This document shows, one piece after another, positions 25,379 through 54,690 of a DNA stretch of 64,000 bases. Under the pieces are notes generated by a model. The model ran no database searches, was not told the DNA's origin, and saw only the letters and a list, made by a program, of their open reading frames with translations. Made by a program: the position numbers and the translations under genes. This DNA is from Echinarachnius parma (lineage: Eukaryota > Echinodermata > Echinoidea > Clypeasteroida > Echinarachniidae): NCBI GenBank assembly GCA_037951105.1, contig JBAMJV010009356.1, positions 60,937-124,936 of the forward strand, read 5' to 3'. Each line of letters opens with the position of its first letter. Position 1 is the stretch's first letter.

Positions 25379-25865
25379 GCGGCACGTGCCTCGTGTCTGT
25401 CATAAGCATCATAAACCCGACTCGAATATGGATATATTCTTCAGCTTCAGCTTCAACAATAGGATAATGATATGGAATGAACATGATAATAGCGAACGTG
25501 AGAAATCACGCGAAGAGATGGCTCTTTCTACTGTATATATCGTTCCTTGTAAGTTTTCCCCTATGTTTGAGTTGATACATACCAGTAATTCCACTCATTT
25601 ATGTTGAATAAGTAAATATTTAAAATTAGCGAAAACACTTTGATTTATTTAATGAATTGTTTCAACTTTTGTTTTCATTATCTTCATTTTTAAAAGGAAT
25701 TCGACCGTGAACCATTCGATGAGATGAACTCTACATAATTATACAAATCACTCGCCATTCAAGTTACAACGAACTGACATGAAACTTCGGCGTTACGAAC
25801 GTCATTCTCGTTTTGTTTTCTTTTTAAAGGGTTAGGGGCTTGGGGCGATAGGCTTGAACAAGAAT

Positions 25866-26172
25866 TCACTCAATATCTTCATACTCATGATACGTGTCCT
25901 CATTTACAACTTCATCATTGCCCTCCTCAGTCACAATGTTTTGCTCGTAAGCATGTCCTCGGCTTTCTTCATGTAACTCATTACCAGTGTTTTGTCCAGG
26001 CGTCGTACAAGTGATCTGGTATGGTTCAGGCAGCGTACGCAAGCCAAGTTCTGAGTAGTTATTACCATCCGTCTGCGATTGAAAGCGGGGTCCTATTTCT
26101 TGAAGTTCGGTAGAGATGTTATGATCTCCCGGGATGGTTGAGCGGGTGGTAGATGAATTGTGCTCCGTTCTC
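25866..26172 (-). CDS. Cytoplasmic tail exon (gene 3)
   Basis: Acceptor AATTTAG, phase 2; 101 residues then stop. The tail is acidic and Asn/Thr/Glu-rich, with tyrosines in [22 protein letters not shown] and [13 protein letters not shown] resembles the pYEEI-type ligand of Src-family SH2 domains, and YSEL with YQIT has near-ITAM spacing but the second lacks the final Leu/Ile. Signalling is an inference from these motifs only. Confidence 0.75.
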
Positions 26173-29100
26173 CTAAATTGAAGACACATACTGATTTACT
26201 GTCGAATTAGAATGTTTACGTCATTCTATGCAAACACTATTCAAACAGTAATTAAAGGGTTACTCAATACACGTTGATGATGATTTCATTATTTGAATTT
26301 ATGATATTACCTTCCACGTTATGAGTGATGAGGAACTCCATAATTCACAACAATGTTTATACAAATGTAACGAATTTATCCTAACAAAATCATCCCAATT
26401 CACAAAAATATATATCACACCCAGTGGCGTACCAAGAAATGTTTTCAAGGGGGGGGGGAGGGGGTTTAATTCGTCAGCCAATTTTCTGTCATTGGGGGGG
26501 GGGGGGGTGTCCGTAGACATTTTTGAAGGCAAGACCGAGAATTGTCAACATTTACGAGGCCGAGACCATCGGTAATGATGGGCGAGACCGCTAAAATGTG
26601 GTCTCGAGACAAGCTACAATTAAGTTGAAAGGGAGGGGGGGGGGGTTCAAATCCCCCAAACAGTAATGTTCTGGTCAAAGGGGGGGGGGGGGGGGGGCTT
26701 CGGTTACCTTTTCCAAATACCGATCACATTGAAGCAAACAACTGCCAACAACATTAGTACTACAGCTACCCCAGCTACAGCAGCGACAGCAAAATATATT
26801 CCAGTCATCGGCGTTGTCGGGATTGTGGACTGCGTCGGGACAAGTGTAGTTATTAGCGTCTCTGGAGTATTGACATAACAACAATATAAGATCCTTTAAA
26901 CGTGCGGTTTATTTAATATGTTTCACATTGAAATAAATTGTATTCCATTCGCCATAATAACACATGCATCAAAATTACACAAACGTTCAAAAACATGCAA
27001 ACCAATACAAACATACCGAAAATTAACTACGACATAGAGTATTATTCATGCAAATTGGGAAAATACTAATTGCTTGTTGCATCGGAGGTGAATTCTATCT
27101 TCCTATGTCTGTCTAAGGTCTATATTGATCATTAGTCTGCGGCAAGTAATCCAGAGTGTGTTTGATCCCATTGGCGGTTTCTCTGATGGATGCACATATA
27201 TAAACAAACGCTAGCTAGATGGATACCCAGATAACAATGCGACGTTGGCGGAACGTAGTCTATAGTCGGCACCGTCGCGGTTGGAAAAACAACGTTTAGC
27301 CAACGTTGGCCTACGGTAAATTCACAACGATATTTTTGCAGTCGGCGAGCTGACGTTAAAACAACGTTAAGCCGACGTTGGCTGTTGACTGTTGGCAAAC
27401 TGGTCGGCAAATGTACGTTGAAACAACGTTGGGTGATAGTTAGACGAACAATCATATTTATATGGTCGAAAAGCAAACGTTGGGCCAACGTTTCGCCTAC
27501 TACGTTGGATATTGGTTGGCTAGTTGACGTCGTACTAACGTTTGACAAACAACCGCATTACGACGGTAGGCAAGCCAACGTAGGGCCAACATTCACTTAT
27601 ATAGTCGTATGAACGTTGGGGTTTAGTCGGCTCAATGTTGGCTTGACGTCAGAAATAGCAAAATAAAAGGTTGGGCAAACGTTGGCGCAACATTGGCAAT
27701 TGACGTTGGCTTATGGGGGTTGGGCCGACAAGGGCCCAGCAGCAAGAATGACGTGGGCAAAACGTCACGTTTTGACGTTGGCCCAACATGACCGCCTACA
27801 TTGGGCCAACGATGGGCCAACGTAGCATTGTTATCTGGGTATGATAGCCAGAAATAACCGACTGTAAATTGGGTTTCTTTTCTATAAATCTATTTCTATT
27901 AATCGGACTTCCTATATACCAAGACGGTCAATGAAGCTAGACCTGATAAATGTCTTCAGGGCTCTCTTAAATTAATCAATTGAGGATATTTTATAATTTG
28001 TCTAAGTCGTGAATCCTAACGTGGAAGTGCTGAATACGGTATATTAAGAGATTATTTGCAAAAATGCCTTAAACGCCAATTCTGAATTCTATTATACAGA
28101 ATAATGCCTTTAAATTGATTCTTTACTCCACTTAATAATAATGAAGATATGCAGTATATTGCACATTTCCTTATTAACTATTTTGTTTTCAACCAGCTTC
28201 AATTGCAAATATTCCTGAATTGGATACAAATTGAGATACATGTATTACTTTTTGCAACATGATGAGGATGATGATGACGATAATTCTAATGCAGGCAATA
28301 GTGATGATGACAATGATGATGATATGATAATGACGACAATAGTAATGATGATGATGATGCTAGTGGTGGTGGTGATGGTGCTGAAAGTTCTGGTGGTGAT
28401 GATGATGACGGTGGTGGTAATTATGATACAAATATTGGTGATGAGTGTGGTGGTGGTGTGGTAACTACGATAGTGATTATGATAGTGCAGTGATAATGGT
28501 CAAAGGAATGATGATGACTACGATAGTGATTATGATAGTGCAGTGATAATGGTCAAAGGGATGATGATGACTAAGATAGTGATTATGATAGTGCAGTGAT
28601 AATGGTCAAAGGAATGATGATGACTAAGATAGTGATTATGATAGTGCAGTGATAATGGTCAAAGGGATGATGATGACTAAGATAGTGATTATGATAGTGC
28701 AGTGATAATGGTCAAAGGAATGATGATGACTAAGATAGTGATTATGATAGTGCAGTGATAATGGTCAAAGGAATGATGATGACTAAGATAGTGATTATGA
28801 TAATGCAGTGATAATGGTCAAAGGGATGATGATGACTAAGATAGTGATTATGATAGTGCAGTGATAATGGTCAAAGGGATGATGATGACTACGATAGTGA
28901 TTATGATAGTGCAGTGATAATGGTCAAAGGGATGATGATGACTACGATAGTGATTATGATAGTGCAGTGATAATGGTCAAAGGGATGATAATGACTACGA
29001 TAGTGATTATGATAGTGCAGTGATAATGGTCAAAGGGATGATGATGACTAAGATAGTGATTATGATAGTGCAGTGATAATGGTCAAAGGGATGATGATGA

Positions 29101-30236
29101 CTAAGATAGTGATTATAATAGTGCAGTGATAATGGTCAAAGGGATGATGATGACTAAGATAGTGATTATGATAGTGCAGTGATAATGGTCAAAGGGATGA
29201 TGATGACTACGATAGTGATTATGATAGTGCAGTGATAATGGTCAAAGGGATGATGATGAATACGATAGTGATTATGATAGTGCAGTGATAATGGTCAAAG
29301 GGATGATGATGACTAAGATAGTGATTATGATAGTGCAGTGATAATGGTCAAAGGGATGATGATGACTACGATAGTAATTATGATAGTGCAGTGATAATGG
29401 TCAAAGGGATGATGATGACTAAGATAGTGATTATGATAGTGCAGTGATAATGGTCAAAGGGATGATGATGACTACGATAGTGATTATGATAGTGCAGTGA
29501 TAATGGTCAAAGGGATGATGATGACTACGATAGTGATTATGATAGTGCAGTGATAATGGTCAAAGGGATGATGATGATCACGAAGACGATAATGATGACT
29601 ACAATAGTAATGATCATGATCATGATGACGATAGTGATGATGATGACGATAATAATAATGAAGATAACAATGATGTCGATATTGATGATCATGATAATGC
29701 TGATGGTTTACCTTCTCTGCATGCGATGCCTATGAAGTTATCCTTGCACACACAGGAGTAGGATGCAAGCAGGTTCAGACACTCCTTTGTACCCACAGGA
29801 TCACAGATGCCAGTTTCGCAATAATCAATAGCTGCAGCACAAAGATGAAACGAGAACATAAAATGAATGCTAGTGTTTAATTTTTTTTACATGACAAGAC
29901 TAAAATCGGGAACTGGCATTAAAACATGAAGAAGTTAATTTCCATTATATTCGAGAGTCCATATCATATGGGGCTGACATTTTCGATCCTAGCAGAATCT
30001 TTTTCAGAGGCAAACTGACCTTGGGTGTTCTTCACGAAGATCCTAATTTGAACTTAAATTCTAGGTTTGACTTTAAAAATATGGAAAGCCATTGTTTCAC
30101 TGAATTTTTTTTCTAAAAGTTATTTTAAAAGGCATACATGTTGATTAAAATATAATCAGGGGATTTCTCTAACAAGCCCAAAGTCAATTTGCCTATATTC
30201 ATTTACATATATCTATTTATATAATCCATATCTATA

Positions 30237-30273
<37 letters not shown>

Positions 30274-33200
30274 GTCTATCTATCTATCTATCTATATATC
30301 TATCTTTCTATATATCTATCTTTCTATCTGTCTTTCAATCTACCTACATATCATTCCACACATCCATCGTTGCTCTGCGTGACTGCGTCGGTGTAGTCGA
30401 ATATAGTAGAATGAAAATTAAAGGGAAAGTTGAGTTTTGGTAGAGAGGGCGCTACACAAAATAATTTTGTTGTGAGATAATACAAAACTGAGTGTCAAAT
30501 TTGAAAGAACATACAATTTGAATGGCAGAATAAACTTTATTTATTGGTTCAGAAACGGCTGAAATATCATAAGCCTAACCATTTGTAATAAATGTGGGGC
30601 CCCACAAGTATTCGATAATTTTGAACCAGCCGTTAAAATTCGTTTTAAAATGCTTCCTCTTTTCAAAAATGTTCAATAAAGGTTTTTAGATAGTTGTTGA
30701 TTATCTCTCTATCTAATCACTATTTCAACAAAAAATCACATGCACAATATTTTATTTAAAATGGTTTAAACAAATGCGTTTTTTGAAAGCGCCCTCTTTA
30801 GTTTAAACAGCTCTTTTTGAATGATAACAGGCATTTTACTTAGTCGTTTGTAATTTTTGTATTCCTTTCGAGCATGGTGGAGTTATAACTATTAGTTTGT
30901 AATGTAATGGTGCAGGTTTTGGTTACTAAAATTCAGTTTGACTAAAACTGTACTCTCTCAGAACTCAACTATCCCTTTAACATAGATATTATAGCTAGCT
31001 AGCCAGCAATCTTGCTATATCTTTCTACGTACCCTCATCACACATCGGCCCGGTAAATCCATCATCACACATGCAATTGAATGTGTCGGTCAGTGGCAGA
31101 CACGTTCCATTCACACAAGGATTCGGAGAACAGAAATCTCCATCTGCCAATGGAAGATAAAATGAGAGAAAAATCACAGCAATAATGGTCAAATGAAACA
31201 TAAAATGTAGCGTATTTACTCTCAAATCTACATGAATGAAGTTTGCACTTACTGGGTAAAGCCGTGCTATAGAGTATTTTACCGTAGAATAGATTTCTAC
31301 TACAAACAGAAAAGATCAAATCACTTTTGTGGATAATTCATATGAAATTTATTATATTCTGACAGAAAGTTATGTTGCTGACACTTGTATAGTTTTAATA
31401 AATCACGTTAATTTGTGTTTTAAACGGGAGCTAAGCGCTGGAATTTTTGCTTACTGTTACTAATAAGTGCATAATTTCCGCCATTTCTCTGGTTATATCA
31501 CTAATAAATGGAGATCAATATTTTTAAAACCACTTTTATCTAGTTTTGACTAAAAACTGGGGCTGCCATGTTGCACTAACACAAGCGGGTTACGTAATCG
31601 CTGACATAGCAACAGATTCAACAACAGCGGTTACATAACCCGCTTTGTGTTAGTGCACACTCAGATTCGCTCATAAAACATGTTAGACGGTACTGTTGGA
31701 AAACATGGCAGCCTCCAGTGGTCAGTCAAATCAGTTGATAGAAGTTTAAACAAAATGATTATTTCCATTATTATAGTGATACCCAAGAGGAAATATACGA
31801 CTAGAAGTGTTTGACAAACAGGCCAGCAAGCAAGACCTGCATTAAATAGCTCTGTAAATTTCGCACAGAATTTGTACCGTCTGTTATTTGTTTGTCACTA
31901 TAAATGTGACTTTTGAGAAAGGACGATTTGGAATAGACTTTAGTGATATTTTTGGTTACTACTCAGCGTCAATTTCAGAGAAACTTGGATTTTCAGTGAT
32001 AACTTTCAAAGAACTTCTGGATCAGTTTAATATCACAGCCCCAGGTTTACTGTTTTATGTGCCTTTTTTACACTTCATACTAAGTAACTCACAATGCCTC
32101 TGAGAAGGAACATGAAAAATAGGCAGCCAGGTCATTTTCTTCCGGGCACTACACATCAAGGCCAGCAAAGCCAGCAACTTCCAACGGCCAGGCAGCCTTT
32201 TACTGTCCACGTGGGAGTTGACCAGGCAGTAAAGGAGAGGAGAGGAATGGTAGCTATGGGGGAAAGTTCTACACTGGGTGGCCCAAGTGGGGGCAGTGGA
32301 ATCCAGCTCAACTTTGATGGGCTTTTGGAGGAGCTGAGGGGGGCGGAGAGTGAGCCTGGGGATGATATCGCCTAGCTTGTTGTTACTGCGGTGGAGAACG
32401 CCGTTAAAGCTGTACTCCCCACCATCATTCAGGCAGCGCGAGATGCCTGCCTTTCCCGATTCAAGGAGGCAGTGAATCCACACCTGCTGCGACTGCAGTT
32501 CAAGCAGGACGAACTAATGCAGGAGCAGAGGAGGGACAACCTGAGACTGACTGGCCTGAAGGAGGAAGAAGAAGAGTCCGAAGATGCTCTTGCAGATAAC
32601 ATCTGCAAGGTGGCAAGGGAGGTCGGGGTCGACATCCAGCCGGCCGACATATCTTCTTGCCATTGGCTCGGGAAGAGGAGAGAAGGTGGGAGGAGCAGGC
32701 AGGCCATCGTCCGATTTGTTTCGCGGAGGACGCGAGACCGTCTCTACGATGGACGGTTCCGGTTGAAGGGGAAGGATGGTATGAGAGGAGTGAAGGAATG
32801 AAGACCTCACATCACTCAGATTCTCTGTCTTGATGAGAGCGAAGGAGTCGCCTGCAGTGAAAAGTGCAACAACCAAGTACGGAAGCATCGTCTGCAAACT
32901 GCAAGATGATGCATACAAGATCATCCGGAGCCCGGATGATCTTTTTTAAAACTCGGAATGGACAATGTCCAATACAGCGACTTTAAGCTCCATTTCTTTG
33001 CCTAGTATGTTTCACTCAATTTTGAGGCTGTTAGATTTCCCAATATTTTATTATGTTAGTAAATGATCATGATGAGAACAATCTTGATCTCAGAACATAT
33101 AGTTTAAATCCTAGTAATTTTTATAATAATATGCAGTCTAAATTTGTTCACTCTTTTAGTGTTACTTATGTTAATATTAGGCCTCTAACTAGGAATATCG

Positions 33201-34182
33201 GAGAACTAACTTTCCTTTATGAATATAGCCTTGCCTCTAAATTTGATGTGATTGCCCTGTCAGAGGTATAGACTGTAATGTTTTGTATCTATTCGATTTT
33301 GAGGTATCAATTTTCCAAAAAATACAAAAGAATACACATAATACATTATTTATACTTTGTCATATAAATAAGATCTACAACGCTAAATGAAGTTCATTTC
33401 CTTGATTGATATTCAGAGAATGCAGATAATTATTCAAATAATTATGATATCTCACCTGGAGTCTCGCAGTTATCTCCCACATAGTCGGAAGGACAGACAC
33501 ACTGGTAGTTGCCATCACCTATGTTATTACAGGTGCCTCCATTAAGGCAAGGATTATCACTGCATGCCACGGGAGACGTAGACACAGGTGCAGTTGTAGT
33601 GGTAGGAGCACGTGTAGTGTTTGGGCCTTTAAAACAAATTCAACCATTTATTTCGTTTATGTAAATATTCATTTTGACGCCTGAGTTTTTCATAAAGTTT
33701 ATTGTTTATTGTTGACTTTAAAATGAATTGCAAACAAGGGGGTGAGGGGAGAAGGGAGTTATATACCGTAAAATACACACGGTGCACCTAATAAGGTGTT
33801 AACATTGATCAATGACAGTTGGTATGTGTGCCTTGACGTAGAGATGTGCGTAGTCTAAAAATGTGAAGAAATTGACTAACGTCTTAAACAAACAAATCAA
33901 CCAATATAGAACAACCGTCATTTATGTAAGTGACCTAGGTCGAACCAGTCAAAAAGAGGTCCCTTACTTCGAGAGTATTTTTGAAGCAAAAATAGAATTA
34001 CGTAATGATTGTCCTAATATTATTATTATATTATTGTTTCTTCATATTGAGCAGTCGTTAATATTTATCCGTTGTTCGAAGTTCATACAAGTTCTAAATC
34101 CTTAATCAATCGTTTACGTTTGACTATTTTGTATCATTAAGGCCAAAACCTTTTGAAAGGTTATAACCCCCCCCCCCCCCCC

Positions 34183-34215
<33 letters not shown>

Positions 34216-43200: not shown

Positions 43201-46200
43201 ATTTTACAAAATGCATACCACAACCTGCCCCTGAAGATATGGCCAACTTGCTTCCCCCTCCGTTGGAAAGACGGCGCGTGACTTTGTTAAGTTCATCCAT
43301 GCCCGACCACGCAGTCACTACCCCTGAAGCTAGGACATACTCCTTGGACAGAAGCTTTATCCACTGTGCTGTCCGAATATGGAATTCTCTCCCTGACCAT
43401 GTTGTTGGCAATATTACGAATGTGGGTCTCCAATCCTTCAAAGGCCGTGTACATGAATACCTCTTGTCTAACTAAATTATATTTGTTATTCTATTTTAAT
43501 TATTCTTTATAATTCTTTATTAAATATTCATTTCGTTTGAGCTGCTGTGAACCAATTGATTGGCCCTTAAGAGCTATTAAGATGATCTTGAGGGCTATTG
43601 TTCACTTATGCACTTTATATTTAAAAACAAATTTTAAAAAAGAGCAAAGAGCAAGTGTCAAACTTGGAAGAAACGGACCCATGACATAATTTACAAAGAT
43701 CCCCCATTCTCCATGACCACTGAAGCAAATCGAATAGGGTTTTCTGCAAGATGTAGGTAATAAGTTATAGTTTCATACCCTGAAAAAACATTATGATTTA
43801 TCCACTTCTTTAAAGTTATCGTTGCAGAAAGTCCGATTGTAATTATTGTTGGGACATACGGTAGTAACAAGCTTTGGTTTTGCCACACAGCTACATACGT
43901 AATTTAATGATTGCATGATGATGATGCATGATAATGGATGCATGCTTGCAGGTGAATAGAGATGTGCAAATCATGATGATAAGATGGCAATATACGGCAA
44001 CACCACTCTGATGATTGCGATGACTAATGCTAGCAAAAGTGTTGAATAATTTGTAAACAATTACAAGGTATGCTGCAGACTGTTCCACAGTATCCGTTAT
44101 TGCAACTGCACCGATGACCGCCATTAGCTAGGACGAAACAATCCCCGTTGCCGTTGCAGAGCGTTGTTCCGCTCGGGCACGATTCTGCCTCTGTTTAGTA
44201 TACGTAATACACTTTAACTTTACACTATTATTGTCATATCTAAATTATAGTTTGACAAATAAAATACAATGAGGTGATTTACAAAAGTTAAGTTCATACA
44301 TAATTATAAGCAAAACAGCTATTAAACTCAAGAATCACAAACGTTCAATGTAATAATAAAGAGATTTCTTATTTTGTTGAATAAGGAAAAGAACTCCTTG
44401 TTTCAAGTTTTACGTTTCAAGTTTTGAAATTTCAATATGAAGACCAGAAACAAGATACAATCAATACCTGTGGTGCAGCTGGAAATGGACTATTCAGCCA
44501 TCATTTCTGTAATTTCCCCTTCTATTATTCATAATTAATTGTGTATAAATTGTAATTATATTGCTTTTTTTATTTTGCAAGTTCATACATTTAGGCAATA
44601 TTTGTCTTTCATCTACAGTTCCTTTTGTAACAGAATTAGACCAATCCTATAACTAGAGAAAAAATGTACTTAATTAAACATGTCAAGAGAGAAAATTTAC
44701 CAATTTGACAGGTATTCCCTACGAAACCAGCGGCACAGAGACACCCGGCACCTGCCATATCATTGCTACAGATTCCTCCATTTAAGCAGGATATGGCATC
44801 ACACGGGTTGTAACCTAGGATAGAATTTTCTAAGTAAGTTTTCTTCACAAAACACACCGATTCTTCCTGATTTTATTCAAAATAAAATGAAACTTAACGC
44901 TGCCAAATGTAAGGTTATGCGTATTACAAGATGTAAACAGCCAAATGTACCTATCTATTATATGAATGACTCCCAATTAGAAGTTGTATCTGAATTTAAA
45001 TATCTTGGAATATTTTAAATAATAAGTTGTCATGGAACGATTACGTCAATTATGTAGTGCTTCGAGCAAACAAGATGCTTGGATTTATATTTAGTGTCGC
45101 AAGACATCTTCCTTCTAAGGCTTTGCTTGCCTTGTACAAAAGTATAGTTTTACCTATATTAGAATATGGTCAACCCGTTTGGTATTTGTATTTAAAGGGA
45201 AAGTTGAGTTTTGGTAGAGAGGGCGCTAGACTACTTAATTGGTTTGTGAGGTAATGAAAAACTGAGTGTAAAATTTGAAAGACCATAATATTTAAACAAT
45301 AAAATCATCTTTGTTTGATCAAAATCGGTTCAGAAACGGCTGAAATATCCATAAATATAACAATTTGTAATAAACCCGGGGCCCCGGGTTTATTAGAGAA
45401 TTTTGAACCAGCCGTTAAAAATTCAAAAAAATGCTTCCTCTTTTCAAAAAGTTACAAAATAGGTATTTAAATAGTTGTTGGTTATTTCTCTATCTAATCA
45501 CTATTTCAACAAAGCATCACATGCACAATATTTTATTCAAAATGGTTAAAACCGATGAGTGTTTAGAGAGCACCCTCTTACGTTTTAACGGCTCTTTTTG
45601 AATGATAACATGATCTTTACTACGTCATTTGTAATTTTGTGTTCCTTTCTAGTTATAACTATTAGTTTGTAATGTAATGATGCAGGTTTTGGTTACTAAA
45701 ATTCAGTTTCACTAAAACTGTACTCTCCTTACCAGAACTCAACTATCCCTTTAAAGAAGCATATTGATGCAATAGACCGCTTCTGTAATGTATGCAAATA
45801 ATATACGTATGACGTAAGACTCCCCGTTGGCAAGCTTAACAATAGTAACTAGGTCCGGCAAGCTACGTTTGCCGGAGCTTGCCGGACCTAGTTACTATTG
45901 TTAAGCTTGCCAACGGGGAGTCTGACGTCATACGCATATTATTTGCATACATTACAGAAGCGGTCTATTGAAAAGGTGCAGCGCCGTGCAACGAGGCAAA
46001 TCCTCAAACAAAGAAGGATGGACATGTCATATGACGATCGCCTCAAAACACTCCGCTGGCATACACTTGAAGTGAGAAGGATTTTTCTTCTCATTTGCTA
46101 CTTTCTAAAGGCACTGTTTTTTATAATAAGATGTGACGTAGTTAAGTTAAACATACAAGTAAATGTACGGCATACCGAAACAGTGAAGTTCCGTCACCTT

Positions 46201-49200
46201 CGTGCTCGAACACAAAGCATGCATTGTTCAGCTCTAAACCAGTTTCCGCGTATTTGGGAAAACCTACCCGAATCACTGAAGACTGGGGTGGTGGAACTTT
46301 CACTATCTGCTTGGATTTTTCAATTACGCCGCCATTTATTTGTTAATAATTAGTTAAGCGTCACCCGAGTGGCTCCGCCTCTCGCATTTATAACACACAG
46401 AGACGGAGCCATTCGGGTCGCGTGTATACGATTGTATTTGTATTGCATTTGCATTTTTTCTTTATTTCAGTACTGATTTTGTATATCTTTTATTAATGAA
46501 TGTTTTTGTAACTATAATGATTCCTCATTGTACTGTTATATTTATGTAGGTCACATGAACTGGGAAAGATGACCTTCGGGTTAGAGTTATTCAGTTAATC
46601 TTTTTCTTTCCCTGGCATTCATGTGACCGTTTCTTTATACCTTGTATGATGATTGTTTTTGTATGTTTCATTTGCCGAATAAATAATAATAATAATAATA
46701 ACCGTTTATCTCTTTAATACTAATACGATATAGCATATAGAAAGGCTCATATCGAGAAAGCGCAAAAAAAAATGCAAAACAAATAAGACAAGACACAATA
46801 TTTAACTTGGTAGCCCTTCAATTCTTAACGTAAGATAGAATTTCATAAATTTCGTCTTAATGTCTACTTATAACAATAATTTGGATCAATGTCTAGAAAA
46901 AAAACACGATTTCTCTTACGACAGTTCATGACATTAAAAATGTAATTTCGCTTTAAAACATAATTTACATACTTTACATTATGTACATTCAAATTTACAC
47001 TAAAATACCCGAAAGGAAATCTTAAAGCATTTGCTATACAGGGTGGCCCAATAAAAAACGGAACGGGTCACTTCCCAAAATATAGCAACAAATGTATTAT
47101 GTCCATCGGATAGGGTGTCTTTTCAAATGAACAACATCAAGAACAGTCAATTTGGTCGTGTAGTTTTTGTTTTAGAGCGCTGTAAGATACACCATGTCAG
47201 GTTCTCTTTTTTGTAAATTGTTAACAAGCCACTGCTTGATACATCGCACGTACCGCCTTCCATAGCGCTGAACAAGGCGCGCCATTGTTAGTGTGCACTC
47301 AGCCGTGTACCGAGATAATAGGCATGGTCGATCAATGGTATTACGGGCAGGGAGTGCATATTAAAGGACAATGAAATCCTTACAAATGTTTGTAGGCACT
47401 ATAAGACACTAAATAGGATGAATAGTCCCTGAAAATTTGAGCACAATCGGTCAAGAAATAAGGAAACTATGGCTCTTTGAAAATATCAATTTATTTCTAT
47501 GAGTGACTCAAATTGGCAACCCACTCTGGCAAAGTTGTGGACAACTCCCCATACGTTTTGTACACAAAATTTCAATTTTGTTGAATTTTCTGAAAATATT
47601 TGTTTAACCCTTCGTTTGAGTTCAACGTATGTCTTGTAGAATACATTTATACACACCATATAATGAGTTTGGGGAATGGAAAAGTGTGACTATGAATAAA
47701 AATGTAAAAATGGGGAAAATTTGTGTACAAAACATATGGGGAGTAGTCCACAAACTCAGAATGCATTGCCAATTTGAGTTCCCCATAGGAAATAATAGGC
47801 ATCTTCAAAGAGCCATAGTTTTCTTGTTTATGGCCCGATTTTGCTCTAACTTTCAGAGATTATTCCTCCTAATCTCTTCAAGTCTATGAAATCAACATTC
47901 TGCTTGGGTTTCATTGCCCCTTAACTGGTGCCGACTAGGTACAAATTGACATTAATTGTTACCTGACATGGTCTCACTCGCAGCGTCATAAAACAAAAAC
48001 TACACGACCAAAACTACTGTTCTTGGTATCGTTTTTTAGTGGAATAGACACCCTATCGGATGGACATACACATTTTGGTACTTTATTTCGGGAAGTGCCC
48101 CGTTCCGTTTTTGGGGGGCCACCCTGTATATATATATTCTCTTCCTCCATATATCCATATGTCAATAAATACAATAACAATTCTAATGATATGCATACAT
48201 ACTTAAAATACAAATTAAACCACAAGTTGCAACATAAAATATGTACCCAACATAAGAAAATATTATAATAGTTATTGATAAATCATACAAAATATACTGG
48301 TAAATCAATGTGTGTTTCCATTTAACATGTTCCCTATTATATTTTGTAATCCCCATATAGTAAGTACAGAGCCAACCATGTTCCCGTAGGCAATATATTA
48401 TTCCCGTTAAAGGGACAGTCCCTCTTTTACAAAACGTCTGAACAGTTTCCAGTTGACGGATGGGGATGAATGTAACACACACACACAAACAAATCAGATC
48501 GAACAGCCCTATAATTTGGATTCTACGAATGAAAAAACGAATGCGTCCCTCCATCAGACTATATTATCGGTCAATAAAAGAGTTTAACTGATTTAGCATA
48601 ATATTACAACTATATTGTACTTAATACGTGTGGTTTACGGGTACACCATGTGAGATGGGTGGATTGGTAAGCCCTGAAAAGGACTATGGTAGTCCTAGAA
48701 AGGACTGTTGGTGTAGTTCTGAAAAGAACTGTTGGTATTCTTTCTAGGAGAGTTCTAAAAAGAACTGTTGGTAGTCCTAGAAAGGACTTTTGGTAGTCCT
48801 ATAAAGGACTGTTGGGATATTCCTGAAATAGACTGTTGGTATTCTTTCTAGGAGAGTCCTAAAAAGGACAGTTGGTAGTCCTAGAAAGGACTGTTGATAG
48901 TCCTAGAAAGGACTGTTGGTATTGCGAGGAGAGGGTGGATGGTAGGAGGGACTCGACGTTTCGAATAGGTTGACTATCCGTCGTCAGGACTTATTCTTGT
49001 AAAGGTATTGTGAAGCCGACATTTGTAAAGGTGTGTCACGGAAAAAAATCTAAAAAATGAAGAATATGTAATTACATGTAGTCAGTTTAAGCGAGGTTTG
49101 ATTATTTTGACTAGTGTGCGGTCATGCTATTCTTATTTGTGCGCGGGTCACGTAGCTATCGCGGGTCACGTAGGGTTCACGCATAGCGTTGAGGTACTTC

Positions 49201-52200
49201 GTGGAATCCGTGTACGAATTTCTTCACTGGGTGAATATACGTATAATTCACAATTAATTGTTGGACGACGGTTTATTAGTTTTAGGTCTATAACTCCACG
49301 AAAAAGAAATTTCAAGCCCTAATTTGTTCAGGCATGCTATTAAATGACATTTTCCTTCATATAAGACAATAACCTCGCAACTTTTGAAATTTGGCTTGCA
49401 AAAAAGGGAATGTCCCTTTAATAGGGGATGATAATTTTGTTTACATACTTTGTCCACAGTTCGGTCCAGTATATCCAGGCATACATATGCATGAGTACGA
49501 ATTGACGAGGTCGTTGCAAGTTCCGCCATTTTGACACGGTAAACTATCACATTAATTGATATATGTGGTTAATTAAAAGAAGGGGAGTTTTCAACCCATA
49601 ATATCCATAATGTACGAAGGCGCCATCAGTAGAAAATATTGGATGTAGCAATAAATCCTATATTCATAATGTAGAACTTTCCATCAAATGAACCTATTTA
49701 AAGGACAATGAAATTCGGACACATTGTTGTATGCACTATATAAGACACTAAATAGAAATGTACTGCACCGGCGACCGCCGTCAGCTAGGACGTAATAATT
49801 TCCGTTGCCGTTGCAGAGCGTTGATCCGCTCGGGCATGATTCTGTTCCTGTTTAGTATACGTAATAATAGGCTACGTTAACCTTGACAATTCATTGCATT
49901 TATTTCATTAATTTATTTTCATATTTTCGAGATTCAATTTCAAGGCAAGTGCTCTGCCAATCTTGCCACATGACAATGAGACATCTAACAATAAAGATAA
50001 ACTTTGTAATTTAACTTAGATTCTAATCATATCAGTTCAATACCTTTATTTTGTTTTGTTTTTCGTTTTAATGAACAATTAAGATACAAATACACATAAG
50101 TTGACTTTCCCGTCCTTATTTACAATTTAAGGTCTGACAATTTCCCCTTGTATTTTTCCTCGATATTATTTTGCACTGACACTTTTTACACTGACATTTT
50201 TCACTGACATTTTTTCACTGACATTTTTATCACTTACGTTTTTTCCACTGACATTTTTAATTCTAACATTATTTCATCTGACATTTTCCCGCTAACATTT
50301 TACACGAAACCGTGGACGCAATTCCCCCATCACTTAGCTGTTACACCGCCAAAAATATGATAGGGATCTAAAACTTCGTCTGAATGGACCAACCTCACTT
50401 GCAACTCAAGTTATATTCTTCTAATAAAAGTAGGAAATGTGTTGGCGTTTTTCTAATTTCCACCTCATTATTGATGTTCATTATTCAGTTTGAATAACAA
50501 ATAGTGGATATTACTTCAAATGGGTAGAAACTTTGACAGGCAATGAGTCAGCAAATATTCCTATGCATTTCCGCTCATTACTTTAACACATGGGCAACTC
50601 CAGCGTCACGGACATTACAAACAGACTGTATTTTCATGACTTTCCAATGCCACTACTAATTCATACCTCTACCTAATGTCTAACTTTTATTTTGATTACA
50701 TAGCAATAGCCTGGTTAAGTATGCAACAAAAAGTTTCAGAACATTTATCCAATTCGTTACTGAGTAATTCTGCAAAATGTGCGCCGTCACGGACATTACA
50801 TTTTTTGGACATGACTTTTTGCATCCATATACATCTTTGCAAAAATCTGTGAGTTCTGAGACCTCAAAAAGGTGATTTAGATGTTCAATTATAGACAAGG
50901 CAATGATGAATTGAATCCAAGTTTGATTTTGCAAAACGGGCCAAGTATGTGATCTAGACAACAAAACGTTGCGTCACGGACATTACATTTTTGAGCGTCA
51001 CGGACATTACAGTTTGTCCCGAGGATTTGATCAATTAAAAAATATACTTTAGAGCACTCAAAAGACTGAAATTTTAATCTGAAAAGGTACTTTGATTATC
51101 AGTCATCAAATTTGGTGCCTTAAATAATAAAAATACCAGACAATTTGGAAAATATAAGGATTTTCCTGAAATTTGCACAGGGTAGTCCCATGTGTGGAGT
51201 TTCATGTATGGTTTCCGTTTCTCCTATAAGGAGACACCCGAGAATAAAAAAATCATGTGAACTGAAAGATATAATCATAGGATCATGTTGTATGGAAAAA
51301 TAATCCAGAAAATATCAATAGGATTTGAAATAGAGTCAATTGTTTTTTTAAGTTCATGTCCACTTTTTCGTGGAATTGCCCACATACTTCAATGGACATA
51401 ACGGACCACAAAAATACACATTCACAAGTATCAGCGTTGTCGGTTTGAGGTATGTATCCCCTTAAAGTACACTTCCTCAAAAAGGCATTATCTTACTACA
51501 TGTTAGGGCAAAATAATATGATGACAAAAATATATCATTTACACAAATAGCCAGTACAATTAGAGTTATTGCACATTAGTACCATTATAGCATCTGCAAC
51601 ATATAATAAATTTTCGGAGAACTTGAAAATTGAAACTTTAATGTATTAATATTCACACAAATAAAAAGTATAATTAATTAAACAAGTGTAAAGCATACCA
51701 CTTATATACGATGATCTCATCCCAATCCAATATGTTTCCAAGTCCTGGACAAATGATGCTCTGGAGAAGAATTGCGAGGAAGATTATTTGAGATGTTAGA
51801 TTACACATTCAGAATACACAATGAACAATATTATCCATGCGATACAGAAGGTAAACTAATTTTTAATATACCCTAACTGTTTACAGCGTTTGACTATCTT
51901 TGTAAGAAAAAATGAATGTCAAAATGTTGTCGTTATATATTATACACCTTTTAACAGGAATTTTCTTCAAAGTCATGTCTGTCATGTAATAAAATGTATC
52001 TTGTTAAACCGTCTCACATGTTATGAACTCAGCTGAGCCGGTCAGTTACAGTACGCGGGGGGTGTTCAAAATGTTCATAGCCCGACCTTGAAGGGGTCAA
52101 TGTGCAACATCGAGTAATATAGACAGATGTTCTATTGTCCAAATTATCCTCATCTACAGCCACACAATTGTTGGCATTCTTCCTAAGGGCCTCCAGAACC

Positions 52201-54064
52201 TCCTTGAAGAAGTCTCTTGAAAACCCCTCAGAAACATGTATATTGGCATCTTTTATCTCATTATTCTCCTGAAAAGCACAACCTTGGGATTGTTTCTTCA
52301 TGTGTGGAAAGAGATCTAACGATGCCCGGTTCTTGGAATAGAGAGGAAGCAGCAACATCTCCATCCTCAATCAATGGCTTAGCAGGGTTACCCGGCTCTT
52401 GTAAGCAGGCACATTGTCCTGGAGCAGCACATGCCTCTCACCAACTTGCATCGCTTCAATTTCTAAGTGCTTTTTAATGAACATTGCAACATGAACGGTC
52501 AGTCTAGAACAACAATAGAATACAACTGACCTGACTTTGCATCATTGACCATGTGAAGGATGCACTATTGCATGCACAACATTGGATAACCAAACTTCCT
52601 GTTCGGGCTATGAACTTTTTGAACGCCCGTATTTTGATGATTGTATTATGTAACAAAGCATAGCTTGTTTAAAACACATTACTTTAATTGATCAACTTTG
52701 ACCCAATCTATCCATGTATACTTTATCTACTTATACTTTCCTAGTGTTGATTTGGTTTAATCAAAAGTTAAAACTTACATTAAGTAAATACTCTCCCCAT
52801 TAAACGTTGAAGGCGCCGTCCAAGTGAACGTAAAGGACATCGGTTTGTCAGCAGAGTTGGTATGTCTAACAGTCGAATCACTTTCACCTCCGCAAGCTAT
52901 TGTCTCAAAGTAATTCGAGGCCGGGGATGACACCGACCAAGTTCCTACAATTCCGTCTGTGTCAGATCTTCTTGCCTGAAGTAAGATGCCCTTTAGCGCT
53001 GGCGACCCTTGGGCAGTTGTCACTGTAACTGTATAGAAAAAAACACACACGATAAGAACAACCCTTTACGTAGACCTTTTCATTTATGTTCATTTTCATC
53101 AAGTAGTAAACCGGGGGAGGAATTGTAAGGAACCACAGCGCTTTGGAAGGATCAAGCGTTAAAAAATATACACTTTCAATCATTTTCGCTTTCTTATCAG
53201 TGAAACTATCGAGGCATTAAAGACAATCATAATGACAAACCCCCTCCCTGCCGAATAATGGCACAAATACATAATTTGATAAATAATTACTTTTGAAGCT
53301 AACTTGCTATCGGCTTCCGCACTGTGCCTATTTAGGTATTGAACTCTGCTGCGTCACATGAATAGAGTAGAGTTAAATCATAGTAATCATGAACAATGAT
53401 TTGCATTCATTATGTGCCTAAGCATTTGGGGGACCAGTCATCAACTGGTTCAAGAGTCTACATTGTGATAGTTGAGGACACACTGAAGTGTTGTAGCGTG
53501 GTCGGACTGATAGGAAGCACGATTATTATTGAGGGCACACTTTATGTTTTTAATTTTTTTAAAGAATGTCCCCATTCATTACTTTTGTCGATTTATAAGA
53601 GTACGTGCCCCATCCCCCACCACCAACACCACCACCCGACGAGATGTGATGGATCAAAGACTAGGTCCAGTTTGTAGTGAACCTGGAAGAACATAATCAT
53701 GACGTCAAATAAGCACATATTTGTAAGTTGACTCCCATGAATCGCGTTTAAGCACTCTGAAATTACATGGATCCCCTGGTTTAATCCATAGAAATTGCAT
53801 TCTCGTTATTCCAAACTACCTAAGTACGAGCGTATTGCACTTACCATCCATTGGTTCTAGTACAGTGTAGTACTCAGTTGCGGAGATGGAATAAGGACTG
53901 GTTCCTGTTTGTGTCGACCCAGAGAGTCCGGATGGCATCAATGTATCGCATTCTTCATTTGATTGAGCTATGATGCTCTGGATCTGAAGAAGTACAATCA
54001 CGATCAATGTCACCAACAACATGATGCCGATATTCAAGTAATAACTTTGAACACGCCTAAACAC
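25866..54064 (-). CDS. Reeler-EGF transmembrane receptor-like protein (gene 3)
   Basis: Joined minus-strand exons: 53845-54064, 52779-53028, 51702-51760, 44701-44814, 44065-44190, 33456-33626, 31033-31143, 29712-29831, 26708-26861, 25866-26172. Phases agree at every junction, and the total of 1632 nt is one frame of 543 residues plus stop. Order of parts: signal peptide (about 1-33), Reeler domain (about 34-176), five EGF-like domains (about 177-390), a Thr/Pro stalk, one transmembrane helix (about 415-438) and a 105-residue cytoplasmic tail with five tyrosines. The topology is a type I plasma-membrane protein. Reeler plus EGF recalls reelin, but the membrane anchor and Tyr-rich tail do not. 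Receptor or adhesion function is inferred. A sixth EGF-coding segment at 49449-49547 lacks a canonical acceptor. The introns are full of transposons; no transcript evidence is available. Confidence 0.8.
26173..26707. other. Intron of gene 3 with several G runs
   Basis: Contains GTGGCGTACC (26423) followed by G runs at about 26449-26465, 26494-26508, 26632-26645 and 26679-26698. No exon is seen. Confidence 0.6.
26708..26861 (-). CDS. Stalk and transmembrane exon (gene 3)
   Basis: A 154-bp exon, phase 1 to phase 2, with acceptor ACTCCAG and donor AAAAG/GTAACC. It encodes a Thr/Pro-rich stalk ([13 protein letters not shown]), a hydrophobic helix of about 25 residues ([18 protein letters not shown] onwards) and a WKR stop-transfer signal. 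The next exon continues KRRTEHN. Confidence 0.8.
27226..27839. mobile_element. TA-flanked inverted-repeat element built of AACGTTGG motifs
   Basis: Ends CCCAGATAACAATGC and GCATTGTTATCTGGG are perfect inverted repeats, flanked by TA on both sides. The roughly 600-bp interior is crowded with CAACGTTGG and its variants (GACGTTGGC, GCCAACGT, GGGCCAACG) in both orientations. It has no ORF. The flanking TA suggests a Tc1/mariner-like or related insertion; the class is not certain. Confidence 0.75.
28258..28464 (+). repeat. Degenerate GAT/GGT trinucleotide tract
   Basis: A run of GATGAT, GACGAT and GGTGGT triplets, directly preceding the 53-bp array. Confidence 0.8.
28465..29578 (+). repeat. 53-bp minisatellite, 21 copies
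   Basis: The unit contains GATAGTGATTATGATAGTGC and AGTGATAATGGTCAAAGG, followed by GATGATGATGACTA. The marker TGATAATGGT falls at 28491 and then every 53 bp to 29551, which is exactly 21 copies with no length change. Variation is limited to a few positions (ACTACG/ACTAAG, AAAGGG/AAAGGA). The period is not a multiple of three, so it is not coding. Confidence 0.95.
29712..29831 (-). CDS. EGF-like exon (gene 3, last EGF)
   Basis: A 120-bp phase 1-1 exon with acceptor GTGCTGCAG and donor AGAAG/GTAAAC. It encodes [19 protein letters not shown] and NFIGIAC, a complete though divergent EGF-like domain. Confidence 0.75.
30236..30345 (+). repeat. CTAT microsatellite
   Basis: About 100 bp of ATCT/CTAT units with a few interruptions. 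Confidence 0.9.
30418..30980 (+). mobile_element. TTAA-ended MITE family B, full copy
   Basis: A 563-bp element bounded by TTAA. The left TTAAAGGGAAAGTTGAGTTT and right AACTCAACTATCCCTTTAA are inverted repeats. It has a central GTGGGGCCCCAC palindrome and no ORF. Other copies: 45192-45754 (full), 9478-10047, 19430-19866, 40693-41066 and 62214-62557. Confidence 0.8.
31033..31143 (-). CDS. EGF-like exon (gene 3)
   Basis: A 111-bp phase 1-1 exon with acceptor ATTGGCAG and donor GAGG/GTACGT. It encodes [17 protein letters not shown] and DGFTGPMC, a complete EGF domain. Confidence 0.8.
31573..31656. mobile_element. Very small inverted-repeat element, copy 1
   Basis: 84 bp: GCACTAACACAAGCGGGTTA on the left and its near-perfect complement on the right. 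The loop contains CAACAGATTCAACAAC. It is related to 5229-5290. Confidence 0.7.
32094..33271 (+). mobile_element. LINE 5' fragment: ORF1-like and endonuclease start
   Basis: The frame at about 32391-32801 encodes an ORF1-type nucleic-acid-binding protein: a coiled-coil-like acidic stretch ([13 protein letters not shown]) and then [12 protein letters not shown] and [10 protein letters not shown]. The preceding frame (32094-32375) is separated by a stop. At 33053-33271 a second frame gives the beginning of an endonuclease domain ([25 protein letters not shown]), then a stop. The rest is missing. It is a dead copy, opposite in orientation to gene 3. Confidence 0.7.
33456..33626 (-). CDS. EGF-like exon with Thr/Pro linker (gene 3)
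   Basis: A 171-bp phase 1-1 exon with acceptor TTTAAAG and donor [28 protein letters not shown] linker is followed by a complete EGF domain ([24 protein letters not shown]). The layout matches the 186-bp exons of gene 1. Confidence 0.8.
34168..34211 (+). repeat. Poly-C run followed by poly-A run
   Basis: About 15 C and then about 29 A, directly beside the left arm of the foldback element. Confidence 0.9.
34207..34527. repeat. Foldback element, about 100-bp arms
   Basis: The left arm (GTAAGTCCCCCATAATCAAA, AGGTTTTGAGCAAAATAACTT) is complementary to the right arm ending in TTTTGATTGGGGACTT. The arms are separated by about 120 bp. No ORF is seen. Confidence 0.75.
35590..35720 (+). repeat. Possible SINE-like fragment
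   Basis: TACTCGATTTATATAGCACC followed by CACTCCCTGGGGAGCATTCC resembles short dispersed repeats common in marine invertebrates. There is no second copy in the window, so support is weak. Confidence 0.3.
35905..38480 (+). mobile_element. Decayed LINE: endonuclease end and reverse transcriptase
   Basis: From about 35970 a broken frame reads the end of an endonuclease ([31 protein letters not shown]). Around 36880-37330 it reads reverse-transcriptase blocks ([24 protein letters not shown]). After an inserted MITE, the frame 37756-38328 has [14 protein letters not shown], the catalytic YADD ([10 protein letters not shown]) and KYLGVIF. Stops (such as TGA at 37018) and frameshifts make it inactive. 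It is opposite to gene 3. Confidence 0.75.
37367..37756 (+). mobile_element. MITE family A, full copy inserted in a LINE
   Basis: TTAA at both ends (37367-37370 and 37753-37756), with the same termini as 8724-9109. It splits the reverse-transcriptase frame between its N-terminal blocks and the SGVPQGS block. Confidence 0.8.
38990..39166 (-). mobile_element. tRNA-derived SINE
   Basis: On the minus strand, GGTGTGGCAAGATTGGTAGA looks like an A box and GAGTTCGAACCCGGAG like a B box, within a tRNA-like 75-bp head (about 39090-39166). A body follows with GTCCTTCAGCAAGACATTTA and TATAAATGGGGACCCGG. That body resembles conserved central SINE domains known across animals; which one is not determined. 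Confidence 0.6.
39668..39736 (-). repeat. tRNA-like fragment
   Basis: On the minus strand, AAGTCAGTGGTAGAAAGCGG and GTAGGTTCGAGTCCCG resemble A and B boxes. The acceptor arm does not pair well, so it is probably SINE-derived and not a functional tRNA. Confidence 0.35.
40693..41066 (-). mobile_element. MITE family B, partial reverse copy
   Basis: Family B segments GATAGTTGAGTTCTGGTAA, AACCTGCACCATTACATTAC and GAGGGCGCTCTCTAAAC in reverse order. The inner palindrome is deleted, and the end runs into repeat family C near 41066. Confidence 0.65.
41066..41450 (-). repeat. Dispersed repeat family C, copy 2
   Basis: The reverse complement of 17280-17700. Shared stretches include GATCATTCAAACGGTAATGG, CTTTTGTGATTTGTGTCAGC and ACAGGACATGACTTCGGCCA. 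Confidence 0.65.
41633..43480 (+). mobile_element. LINE (non-LTR retrotransposon) with internal deletion
   Basis: Plus-strand frames give an endonuclease (41633-42043, [13 protein letters not shown]; then 41961-42350, [28 protein letters not shown]). Near 42285 the endonuclease joins directly to reverse transcriptase ([57 protein letters not shown]). A frameshift near 43230 precedes the C-terminal end ([17 protein letters not shown]). Part of the endonuclease and the first RT blocks are deleted. The motif order fits jockey/CR1-like LINEs. Confidence 0.85.
44065..44190 (-). CDS. EGF-like exon (gene 3)
   Basis: A 126-bp phase 1-1 exon with acceptor CTAAACAG and donor CCTT/GTAATT. It encodes [19 protein letters not shown] and NNGYCGTVC, an EGF-like domain with one extra cysteine near its end. 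A partial duplicate is at 49761-49847. Confidence 0.7.
44701..44814 (-). CDS. EGF-like exon (gene 3)
   Basis: A 114-bp phase 1-1 exon with acceptor TATCCTAG and donor AATTG/GTAAAT. It encodes [18 protein letters not shown] and AGFVGNTC, a complete EGF domain. Confidence 0.8.
45192..45754 (+). mobile_element. MITE family B, full copy nested in LINE remnant
   Basis: TTAA at both ends, 563 bp, the same length as 30418-30980. It has the central GGGGCCCCGGG palindrome. It splits the LINE frame between WYLYLK and KKHIDAI. Confidence 0.8.
45773..45971. repeat. Near-perfect palindrome inserted in LINE remnant
   Basis: CAATAGACCGCTTCTGTAAT on the left and its complement on the right, with arms of about 95 bp meeting around CTACGTTTGCCGG. 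Removing it would restore a DAIEK-type LINE reading (gca-att-gaa), so it is an insertion and not LINE sequence. Confidence 0.8.
46679..46701 (+). repeat. AAT microsatellite
   Basis: A short run of AAT/ATA triplets, possibly the tail of the preceding LINE remnant. Confidence 0.7.
47037..48128. mobile_element. TA-flanked element with CAGGGTGG inverted repeats
   Basis: The left TACAGGGTGGCCC and AACGGAACGGG pair with the right CCCGTTCCGTTTTT and GGCCACCCTGTA. Inner pairings (GGTCGTGTAGTTTTTGTTTT and its complement) extend the arms to over 150 bp. It contains no transposase and carries a nested element (47361-47924). Confidence 0.75.
47361..47924. mobile_element. TTAA-ended foldback element nested in 47037-48128
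   Basis: TTAAAGGACAATGAAATCC on the left and GGTTTCATTGCCCCTTAA on the right. Arms are about 210 bp (CATACGTTTTGTACACAAAA and its near complement), with TTAA at both ends. A 60-bp piece of the same end is at 49697-49757. Confidence 0.75.
48407..49421. mobile_element. TTAA-ended element carrying a minisatellite
   Basis: The left TTAAAGGGACAGTCCCTCTT and right AAAAGGGAATGTCCCTTTAA are inverted repeats bounded by TTAA. It is about 1.0 kb; the interior holds the 22-bp array at 48665-48925. No convincing ORF is seen. Confidence 0.65.
48665..48925 (+). repeat. About 22-bp minisatellite
   Basis: Imperfect copies of GTCCTAGAAAGGACTGTTGG. Each unit has a short inverted repeat (GTCCT...AGGAC), so each can form a hairpin. 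Confidence 0.9.
49449..49547 (-). pseudogene. EGF-like exon without a usable acceptor (gene 3)
   Basis: Minus-strand reading gives [17 protein letters not shown] and PGYTGPNC, a complete six-cysteine EGF domain, with a good phase-1 donor (CAAA/GTATGT). The codon just before the first cysteine is TAA, and no AG lies where a phase-1 acceptor is needed; the nearby GATAG would shift the frame. It is either dead or uses an unusual site. Skipping keeps gene 3 in frame. Confidence 0.6.
49697..49757 (+). mobile_element. Fragment of a TTAA foldback element end
   Basis: TTAAAGGACAATGAAATTCG through AAGACACTAAATAG matches the left end of 47361-47924. It abuts the truncated EGF exon at 49761. Confidence 0.65.
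49761..49847 (-). pseudogene. Truncated duplicate of the 44065-44190 EGF exon
   Basis: It keeps the acceptor CTAAACAG and reads [10 protein letters not shown] and NGNG, then Asn-Tyr-Tyr where the parent has Asp-Cys-Phe, so a cysteine is lost. It is cut after CRRCS-type sequence at 49761 and has no donor. Flanking intron sequence (TAGTATACGTAATA) is duplicated too. Confidence 0.75.
50171..50310 (+). repeat. Degenerate CACTGACATTTTT tandem repeat
   Basis: About eight copies of a 15- to 18-bp unit CACTGACATTTTT, drifting to CTAACATT. Confidence 0.75.
50603..51012 (+). repeat. Four dispersed copies of GTCACGGACATTACA
   Basis: The 15-bp motif occurs at about 50605, 50785, 50973 and 50996 in the same orientation within 410 bp, with unrelated sequence between. 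The last two are only 23 bp apart. The origin is unknown. Confidence 0.7.
51702..51760 (-). CDS. Reeler domain third exon (gene 3)
   Basis: A 59-bp exon, phase 2 to phase 1, with acceptor TTCTCCAG and donor ATAA/GTGGTA. It encodes [19 protein letters not shown]. The A-S-F-V-Q and YWIG pattern is the end of a Reeler domain. The donor is weak (GTGGTA). It joins 52779-53028 to the EGF exons and matches 6524-6585 of gene 1. Confidence 0.7.
51761..52778. other. Intron of gene 3 with mariner remnant
   Basis: Contains the deleted mariner-like element (52052-52633). The rest is AT-rich with nothing recognisable. Confidence 0.6.
52052..52633 (-). mobile_element. Internally deleted mariner-like transposon
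   Basis: TIRs GTTCAAAATGTTCATAGCCC (left) and GGGCTATGAACTTTTTGAAC (right) face each other, flanked by TA. Minus-strand frames carry mariner transposase pieces: [13 protein letters not shown], then after a frameshift [21 protein letters not shown] and [17 protein letters not shown]. Only the C-terminal part of the transposase remains, so it is inactive. Confidence 0.75.
52779..53028 (-). CDS. Reeler domain second exon (gene 3)
   Basis: A 250-bp exon, phase 1 to phase 2, with acceptor TATACAG and donor TTAAT/GTAAGT. It encodes [32 protein letters not shown] and [10 protein letters not shown], the Reeler core. It is clearly paralogous to 7098-7341. Confidence 0.85.
53029..53844. other. First intron of gene 3
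   Basis: An 0.8-kb intron. No repeat family or further exon is recognised. Confidence 0.5.
53845..54064 (-). CDS. First coding exon of gene 3: signal peptide and Reeler start
   Basis: A 220-bp exon, donor GATG/GTAAGT, phase 1. From ATG at 54064 there is a basic start (FRRVQ) and a hydrophobic core ([15 protein letters not shown]), with likely cleavage near SIIA/QSNEE. Then comes the Reeler beginning ([22 protein letters not shown]). A second ATG at 54022 would leave a more typical signal peptide. TATAAG on the minus strand near 54090 could be a TATA-like box and, if so, would favour the second ATG. Confidence 0.75.
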
Positions 54065-54589
54065 ATTGCCGTTCAGTCCTTACCAACGCTTATAAAACCC
54101 AGTCAAGAGGTGCATGGTACACAAACAGAATCTAGATTCAAGCCCCATCCAGCACATAAGTGGGTTTTTACCATCTGTATACGTTTAACGCACAAAGAGT
54201 TTTATGAAATAAACGCCACATTATCTTGCATGTCTTTATACACAATTTTAGGGGATAATCATTGAGCCAAATACAACCAGATTCATCGCGTCACGATTTC
54301 TTTTGAGGCGATTTGTTTCAAAGGTAAGCAAACAAAAAAACATGTCATCGTACGTTATGCTTCGTTGCAAATAACAACCGATGTTAACAATAATATCGAT
54401 ATTTGTAGAATCATAATAGTCTTGCTAGAAAAAAACAATGTCAAAGATTAGAAGGCTAAACAGTCCATCCGAGCACAATAAGAATTAACCTTCTCGTGCT
54501 ATTGTTGTTTGAAATAATTTTCCAAGGTTATTAAGATTGGTTGCTTCGTTCATGTGATACATAAAACATAATACACTCTCATAATAGAG

Positions 54590-54690
54590 CGTGTGAGTGT
54601 GTGTGTGTGCGTGTGTGTGTGTGTGTGTTTGCATGTGTGTGTGCGCGTGTGTGCGTCCGTGCGTTTGAATATGTGTGTGTGTTAATGCGT
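54590..54690 (+). repeat. GT microsatellite
   Basis: About 90 bp of imperfect GT/GTGC repeats. Confidence 0.9.

Follow-up and report, generated by a model that had tools for sequence, protein, structure and literature searches.

A predicted membrane-anchored Reeler-EGF protein with a modular ectodomain in the echinoid Echinarachnius parma

The genome of Echinarachnius parma carries a ten-exon gene, here called gene A, for a protein with a signal peptide, a Reeler domain, EGF-like modules, a Thr/Pro stalk, a single membrane helix and a tyrosine-bearing tail. The gene is confirmed as real: its exons, frame and domains hold up. Its copies differ in their EGF modules, and one of them joins an anciently diverged head to a recently shared tail, so that gene A very probably represents modular variation of the ectodomain above a constant tail. 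I put at roughly 0.5 the probability that the product is a receptor for recognition or adhesion built in this way, with a ligand and a tail function that I infer.

The gene and its product

Gene A is the Reeler-EGF gene on the minus strand of the window, by which I mean the whole 64,000-nucleotide stretch analysed (C9340:60937-124936); genome searches covered the 1.2-Gb assembly of 14,790 contigs. Spliced at AG acceptors and GT donors, ten exons of the minus strand give a single open frame of 530 codons. The earlier note had proposed ten phase-matched exons in one frame, which stands, but it opened that frame at 54064, where there is no ATG; the frame has its first ATG at 54022, and the product has 530 aa rather than 543. 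The nine junctions have phases 1, 2, 1, 1, 1, 1, 1, 1 and 2, and by my own arithmetic the chance of nine matching phases is about (1/3)^9 = 5e-5.

The first three exons encode the amino-terminal end. E1 (53845..54022) contains the start codon, the signal peptide and the first part of the Reeler domain, ends in phase 1 at a GTAAGT donor, and is also found in the copies of the gene on contigs C747 and C93. E2 (52779..53028; acceptor TATACAG, donor GTAAGT, end phase 2) holds the Reeler core, with a Reeler HMM match at contig positions 113723-113971, and E3 (51699..51760; acceptor CTCCAG, donor GTATGC, end phase 1) completes the domain. Five EGF-like exons follow, all of phase 1-1: E5 (44701..44814), which is missing from C747; E6 (44065..44190), which has extra cysteines and an 80% identical amino acid sequence in C747; E7 (33456..33626), a Thr-rich linker plus EGF that gives the best PF00008 stretch and is 100% identical as protein in C747; E8 (31033..31143), 100% identical to C747 as DNA; and E9 (29712..29831), the weakest by Pfam, whose acceptor and first part C747 lacks. 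The Thr/Pro stalk and membrane helix are encoded by E10 (26708..26861), and the cytoplasmic tail, with five tyrosines and the stop codon, by E11 (25866..26172); each occurs at three places in the genome, in the case of E11 with 100, 97 and 92% identity.

Two further EGF-like pieces of the minus strand were left out of the model. E4 (49449..49543), an exon that the earlier note does not list, has an acceptor that wants phase 2 where E3 ends in phase 1, has lost its first cysteine, and is readable in frame only via an alternative E3 donor. A truncated, non-coding copy of E6 (49762..49866), comprising only the first part of the EGF, is 87.6% identical to 44105-44209 and 72% identical to E6 as protein.

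Evidence that the exons are coding comes from the copies. Eight of the ten recur in C747 with the same splice positions, and the three Reeler exons recur in C93 with 45-55% amino acid identity and dN of 0.35-0.44 against dS >1.

The Reeler domain is complete. It spans residues 25-155 and matches the whole Pfam model (PF02014, 1-131 of 131) at 7.6e-21 and 75.4 bits, against a cut-off of 21. The signal peptide, Thr/Pro stalk and single membrane helix are likewise as they had been described before. As to the five EGF-like domains claimed, the five six-cysteine exons are there, but PF00008 alone passes in only two stretches, and E9 reaches 14.7 bits with EGF_CA (cut-off 27) and is also missed by a cysteine-pattern scan. 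The helix lies at about residues 399-426, with a best 21-residue hydropathy of 2.91; other hydropathy windows outside it and the signal peptide do not exceed 1.6. It is followed by WKRR and a tail of about 103 residues, close to the 105 reported earlier.

By hydropathy alone, the amino-terminal signal peptide, the one helix and the basic WKRR on its inner side predict a type I single-pass topology, and I take the product to be almost certainly membrane-anchored. The Pfam domains and the helix also bear out the proposal that Reeler and EGF are combined here on a membrane-anchored protein distinct from reelin. Eight Pfam families match the gene A product at E<=0.1, and no reelin repeat (BNR/Asp-box), DOMON, cytochrome b561 or EMI domain is among them. 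A sequence search of solved structures gave no relative of the tail at E<=10, and two weak matches to the Reeler domain (E 0.46 and 0.77) that I did not accept; an NCBIfam scan of the protein gave one match, below its cut-off.

An allele-like copy with fewer EGF exons

The copy on C747 encodes 451 aa in frame, with a Reeler domain (1.7e-20), three EGF exons, stalk, helix and tail. Two stretches of its upstream flank, of 3,498 and 2,624 bp, match the window at 99.3% and 98.0% respectively, and identity is still 99% within 54100-55000. Around E1 and E2 (52742-54419) it is 89.4% over 1,798 bp, or 93.0% over 2,831 bp with the flank up to 55450 counted in, and around E3 it is 91%. Further along the gene, identity is 97.5% over 35153-40938, 96.9% over 30194-34171 and 95.6% over 25471-27225, followed by 86-91% over 22142-24836 and 96.0% over 19424-21376.

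Two pieces of the window are missing from C747: a block at 44209-49762 that includes E4 and E5, and 29736-30101, with the opening part of E9 and its acceptor. Since each EGF exon has phase 1-1, the remaining exons are still in frame. In the C747 copy of E6, the upstream flank is as in the truncated E6 copy (89.6% over 163 bp, 49762-49924) and the downstream part is as in E6 itself; the simplest reading would be recombination between the two copies of E6.

Substitutions were counted with my own script. Between gene A and C747 the Reeler exons have dS 0.055 and dN 0.031, E6 has dS 0.118 and dN 0.101, E7 and E8 show zero differences, and stalk, helix and tail have dS 0.028 and dN 0.015. Because dN exceeds dS in none of the eight exons, positive selection is unsupported.

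A 53-bp minisatellite in 21 copies occupies 28464-29577 of the window, in the intron between E9 and E10, and a matching array at about 305189-307702 in C747 spans about 2.5 kb. Reverse-transcriptase (RVT_1) fragments lie in gene A introns at 37747-38328 and 42248-43234 (plus strand), the second of them in a stretch that C747 lacks.

A third copy with a diverged head and a recent tail

C93 is collinear with the window on either side of gene A, with 77-91% identity from 62728 to 54527 upstream and 89-98% from 26411 to 18112 on the 3' side, the latter interrupted at 22142-21376. Within the gene body, C93 is mostly unalignable with gene A as DNA, and the exons are nonetheless present. They give a product of 407 aa in frame with a three-exon Reeler domain (1.2e-18), two fitting EGF exons, stalk-helix and tail; in Pfam, Reeler and one EGF stretch pass. 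A third EGF-like frame, which starts from position 20548 in the joined stretch, was omitted, its acceptor being by my reading out of phase.

Divergence between gene A and C93 is very uneven along the protein. In the Reeler exons, dS and dN are 1.20 and 0.44 (E1), 3.4, which is saturated, and 0.35 (E2), and 1.10 and 0.36 (E3), as against 0.17 and 0.14 in E10 and 0.10 and 0.04 in E11; in none of the exons compared is dN greater than dS. Since dS is above 1 in the Reeler exons and 0.10 in E11, the head counts as old and, on average, under constraint, and the tail as recent. As far as the alignments can tell, the likeness of the C93 tail reflects recently shared DNA and does not in itself demonstrate selection. 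Furthermore, a stretch of about 3 kb is common to C747:294936-297971 and C93:104727-107723, within a 6.6-kb match at 95.6%, and is missing from the window between 21376 and 22142. To judge from these patterns, the copies on C9340, C747 and C93 are mosaics.

The cytoplasmic tail

The five tyrosines of the gene A tail are all kept in C747 and C93, and C93 has a sixth. An ITAM needs Leu, Ile or Val at the position where the YQIT of gene A has Thr. The near-ITAM spacing reported before is thus YSEL-x8-YQIT with a second site ending in Thr, and a strict Yxx[LIV]-x6-12-Yxx[LIV] is absent; nor could I read an NPxY motif in the tail sequence. In 20,000 shuffles of the tail, at least two Yxx[LIV] sites arose in 13%, a strict ITAM in 2.3% and a relaxed one, with Thr accepted, in 4.4%, while Y[ED][ED][ILV], the pattern of the pYEEI-like YEDI in the tail (a candidate Src-SH2 site), arose in 2.9%; all of these patterns were picked after the sequence was seen. 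The tail motifs of gene A are near chance level.

I considered tail conservation as evidence of function and rejected it: the 92% identity of the gene A and C93 tails sits in a tract of 89-98% that includes non-coding DNA. The two tails differ by ten non-synonymous and six synonymous changes, so replacements are not rare, and with about ten replacements in about 100 residues the odds of keeping five tyrosines by chance are, by my own arithmetic, roughly even. Because the C93 tail falls within the recently shared tract, its kept tyrosines are weak evidence. That the tail serves phosphotyrosine signalling, rather than endocytosis or anchoring alone, can be proposed only tentatively.

Comparison with known proteins

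Several known proteins share parts of this architecture. Reelin has an amino-terminal signal peptide, a Reeler domain and EGF-like modules, all of which gene A also has, but gene A is without the reelin repeats (BNR/Asp-box); and whereas reelin is secreted, the gene A protein ends, after 530 aa, in a predicted membrane helix and tail. FRRS1/SDR2 is a Reeler membrane protein as well, but with a DOMON domain and cytochrome b561 that are absent in gene A. Vertebrate REELD1 combines a Reeler domain with one helix and is not known to have EGF, which gene A has. The phagocytic receptors Draper, CED-1 and MEGF10 resemble gene A in their EGF modules, one helix and tyrosine-bearing tail; gene A differs from them in having no EMI domain, strict ITAM or NPxY.

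In searches of open-access literature pairing Reeler with EGF, the matches listed included no membrane-anchored protein that combines the two. Elsewhere in invertebrates, Reeler is studied as a soluble microbe-binding protein (PMC12113285, PMC10321396): shrimp and crayfish Reeler proteins are described as antibacterial (PMC12113285), and insect ones as binding microbial cell-wall components, with the role of Noduler in nodules called unclear in that review (PMC10321396). Reeler genes also turn up in immune-challenge studies of an annelid (PMC1939704) and a sponge (PMC6208332). The likeness of gene A to Noduler and the insect and crustacean defence proteins lies in the Reeler domain and in the several copies per genome (PMC12113285, PMC10321396). 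As portrayed there, the Noduler type is small and secreted, with a signal peptide and a single Reeler domain, to which gene A adds EGF modules, a helix and a tail.

The PTC2 proteins of the snail Biomphalaria offer a parallel of another kind. In PMC7494358 they are described as hyperdiverse single-pass proteins linked to parasite resistance, and the GRC and PTC2 systems resemble gene A in having single-pass proteins, strongly diverged haplotypes and presence or absence of segments. The helix is given there as the only known domain of PTC2 proteins, hence these have no domain content in common with gene A (PMC7494358).

Proposed function

It is from the immune studies of Reeler proteins and the parallels with snail PTC2 that I infer, by analogy, a recognition or adhesion receptor. 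Gene A is predicted to encode a type I single-pass surface protein whose ectodomain is modular and variable and whose membrane and tail part is constant. Because the EGF exons are symmetrical (phase 1-1), modules could be gained or lost without a break in the frame, and their number does differ, with five against three between the allele-like copies and further differences between paralogues. Stalk, helix and tail are common to all three copies, C93 with its old head included, by recent exchange or duplication of 3' DNA, the exact event being conjectural. Reeler and EGF modules together would form a diversifying surface to which microbial or self glycans bind, and through YSEL and YEDI the tail may couple this to tyrosine-based uptake or SH2 signalling. 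A role in immune or self/non-self recognition I rate at somewhat below an even chance. If it holds, a surface Reeler protein with a tail would be a candidate receptor for innate recognition in a deuterostome, and the variation in EGF number together with the divergent head and common tail would make this a testable case of a diversifying receptor locus.

An adhesive or structural surface protein is the strongest alternative, although a somewhat unlikely one. Such a protein, anchored in the membrane and making contact with mucus, cuticle or matrix through a glycosylated stalk, would use its tail for sorting or anchoring, and its exons would turn over neutrally. The near-chance tail motifs fit this, as does YSEL, which I take to match the YxxPhi sorting motif as well, and so do the long Thr-rich/EGF or EGF arrays of the second Reeler-EGF gene of the window (gene B) and of a paralogue on C4184 (both described below), which look more matrix-like than receptor-like. 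The tail itself, however, is open, with dN < dS in all three pairwise comparisons, though with few changes, and in my judgement some 103 residues bearing Tyr and Glu are more than anchoring requires.

Recognition may go together with variation by design, in which EGF exons are gained, lost or fused between haplotypes, entire Reeler/EGF heads are recombined near the last introns onto a single constant stalk-helix-tail and balancing selection maintains divergent forms, as at allorecognition or parasite-resistance loci; I consider this rather unlikely. A scavenger or endocytic receptor is about as doubtful: Reeler and EGF would bind debris or microbes, and YSEL and YEDI would serve as YxxPhi motifs for clathrin adaptors, with no SH2 signalling involved. 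The tail has two Yxx[LI] sites, and the binding reported for insect Reeler proteins (PMC10321396) agrees with it, but at least two Yxx[LIV] sites are found in the 13% of shuffled tails given above.

The tail exon (E11) and the stalk-helix exon (E10) each occur at C9340, C747 and C93, and the upstream flank of gene A has long matches at three places and also, through a repeat that it contains, numerous matches of some 100 bases (with 40 of 1,025 candidates scored for the flank). On these grounds the copies can be two alleles plus either a duplicate locus homogenised at its 3' end or a very old haplotype. Were C93 instead a very old third haplotype of the gene A locus, the difference in ectodomain would be allelic, as in the hyperdiverse TM1 clusters of the snail. 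Collinearity with the window to either side of gene A and the 89-98% identity downstream suit this, but C9340 and C747 already occupy both haplotypes of a diploid, and the upstream side of C93 is only 77-91% identical, compared with 98-99% for C747; I regard an allelic C93 as unlikely. An assembly of the ten exons by chance or from a pseudogene is very improbable: they extend across 28 kb, have reverse-transcriptase fragments lying among them, and share their stretch with an EGF exon out of phase and the truncated copy of E6, but nine matching junctions, a complete Reeler domain, two more open-frame copies and dN < dS all speak against it.

The Reeler-EGF family

By HMM, Reeler matches 34 places in the genome, and a protein query finds 53, first exons and weak matches included. 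A tree of E2 was built from 28 Reeler places, namely 25 of the 34 HMM places (nine were left out) and three from the protein query. Nineteen of the 28 fall in three clades with confirmed EGF frames: one that unites gene A, C747 and C93 (81/79, a weak support), one of six with gene B (100/100), and one of ten (99/99). Downstream EGF-like frames were present in all six of the 19 places examined (gene A, its C747 copy, C93, gene B, C2522 at 143 kb, and C4184), and several Reeler places are paired or in small groups with long pieces 88-99% identical, like uncollapsed haplotypes. On the evidence of the tree and these frames, gene A is a member of an expanded Reeler-EGF family.

Gene B is a partial Reeler-EGF gene on the minus strand of the window (607..7354) that runs on to the left of it, as far as 44 kb of C9340 and perhaps further. 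Downstream of its Reeler match (7067-7354) stretches a long series of Thr-rich/EGF frames that resemble one another, with EGF-like frames at 5018-5116, 3739-3852, 2364-2462, 1087-1191 and 607-705 on the same strand and 15 EGF-like frames altogether in the 26 kb of C9340:44001-69936. Its counterpart on C747 is 75.8% identical over 724 bp near the Reeler exon. The paralogue at C4184:86036-100600 has 27 EGF-like frames, mostly in tandem units of about 980 bp. No helix exon was recognised in the paralogues, in about 19.5 kb of C2522 and 23 kb of C4184. With E10 at three places and no helix exon recognised in C2522 or C4184, I predict membrane anchoring for the gene A locus and do not extend it to the family.

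The mitochondrial COX1 gene, on contig C14600, was compared codon by codon with its closest match among solved COX1 chains. Its 14 TGA codons encode Trp; the 18 ATA codons align with Ile (12), Leu (3), Met (2) and Val (1); a single AAA falls on a conserved Asn; of four AGA, one falls on a conserved Ser and three on other residues; and AGG does not occur. A code of the echinoderm and hemichordate type fits these positions, AGA less firmly than the others, and points to Ambulacraria. For acorn worms, PMC11175523 mentions haplotig purging in Ptychodera flava and high heterozygosity in the second species that it assembled.

Two other frames of the window may be recorded. Between gene A and gene B, a 422-codon open frame (22366-23634, plus strand) has a weak match to Sulfotransfer_2 (20.6 bits, cut-off 22). 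Near the contig end, an EGF-like open frame (63494-63595, plus strand) is possibly the exon of another gene.
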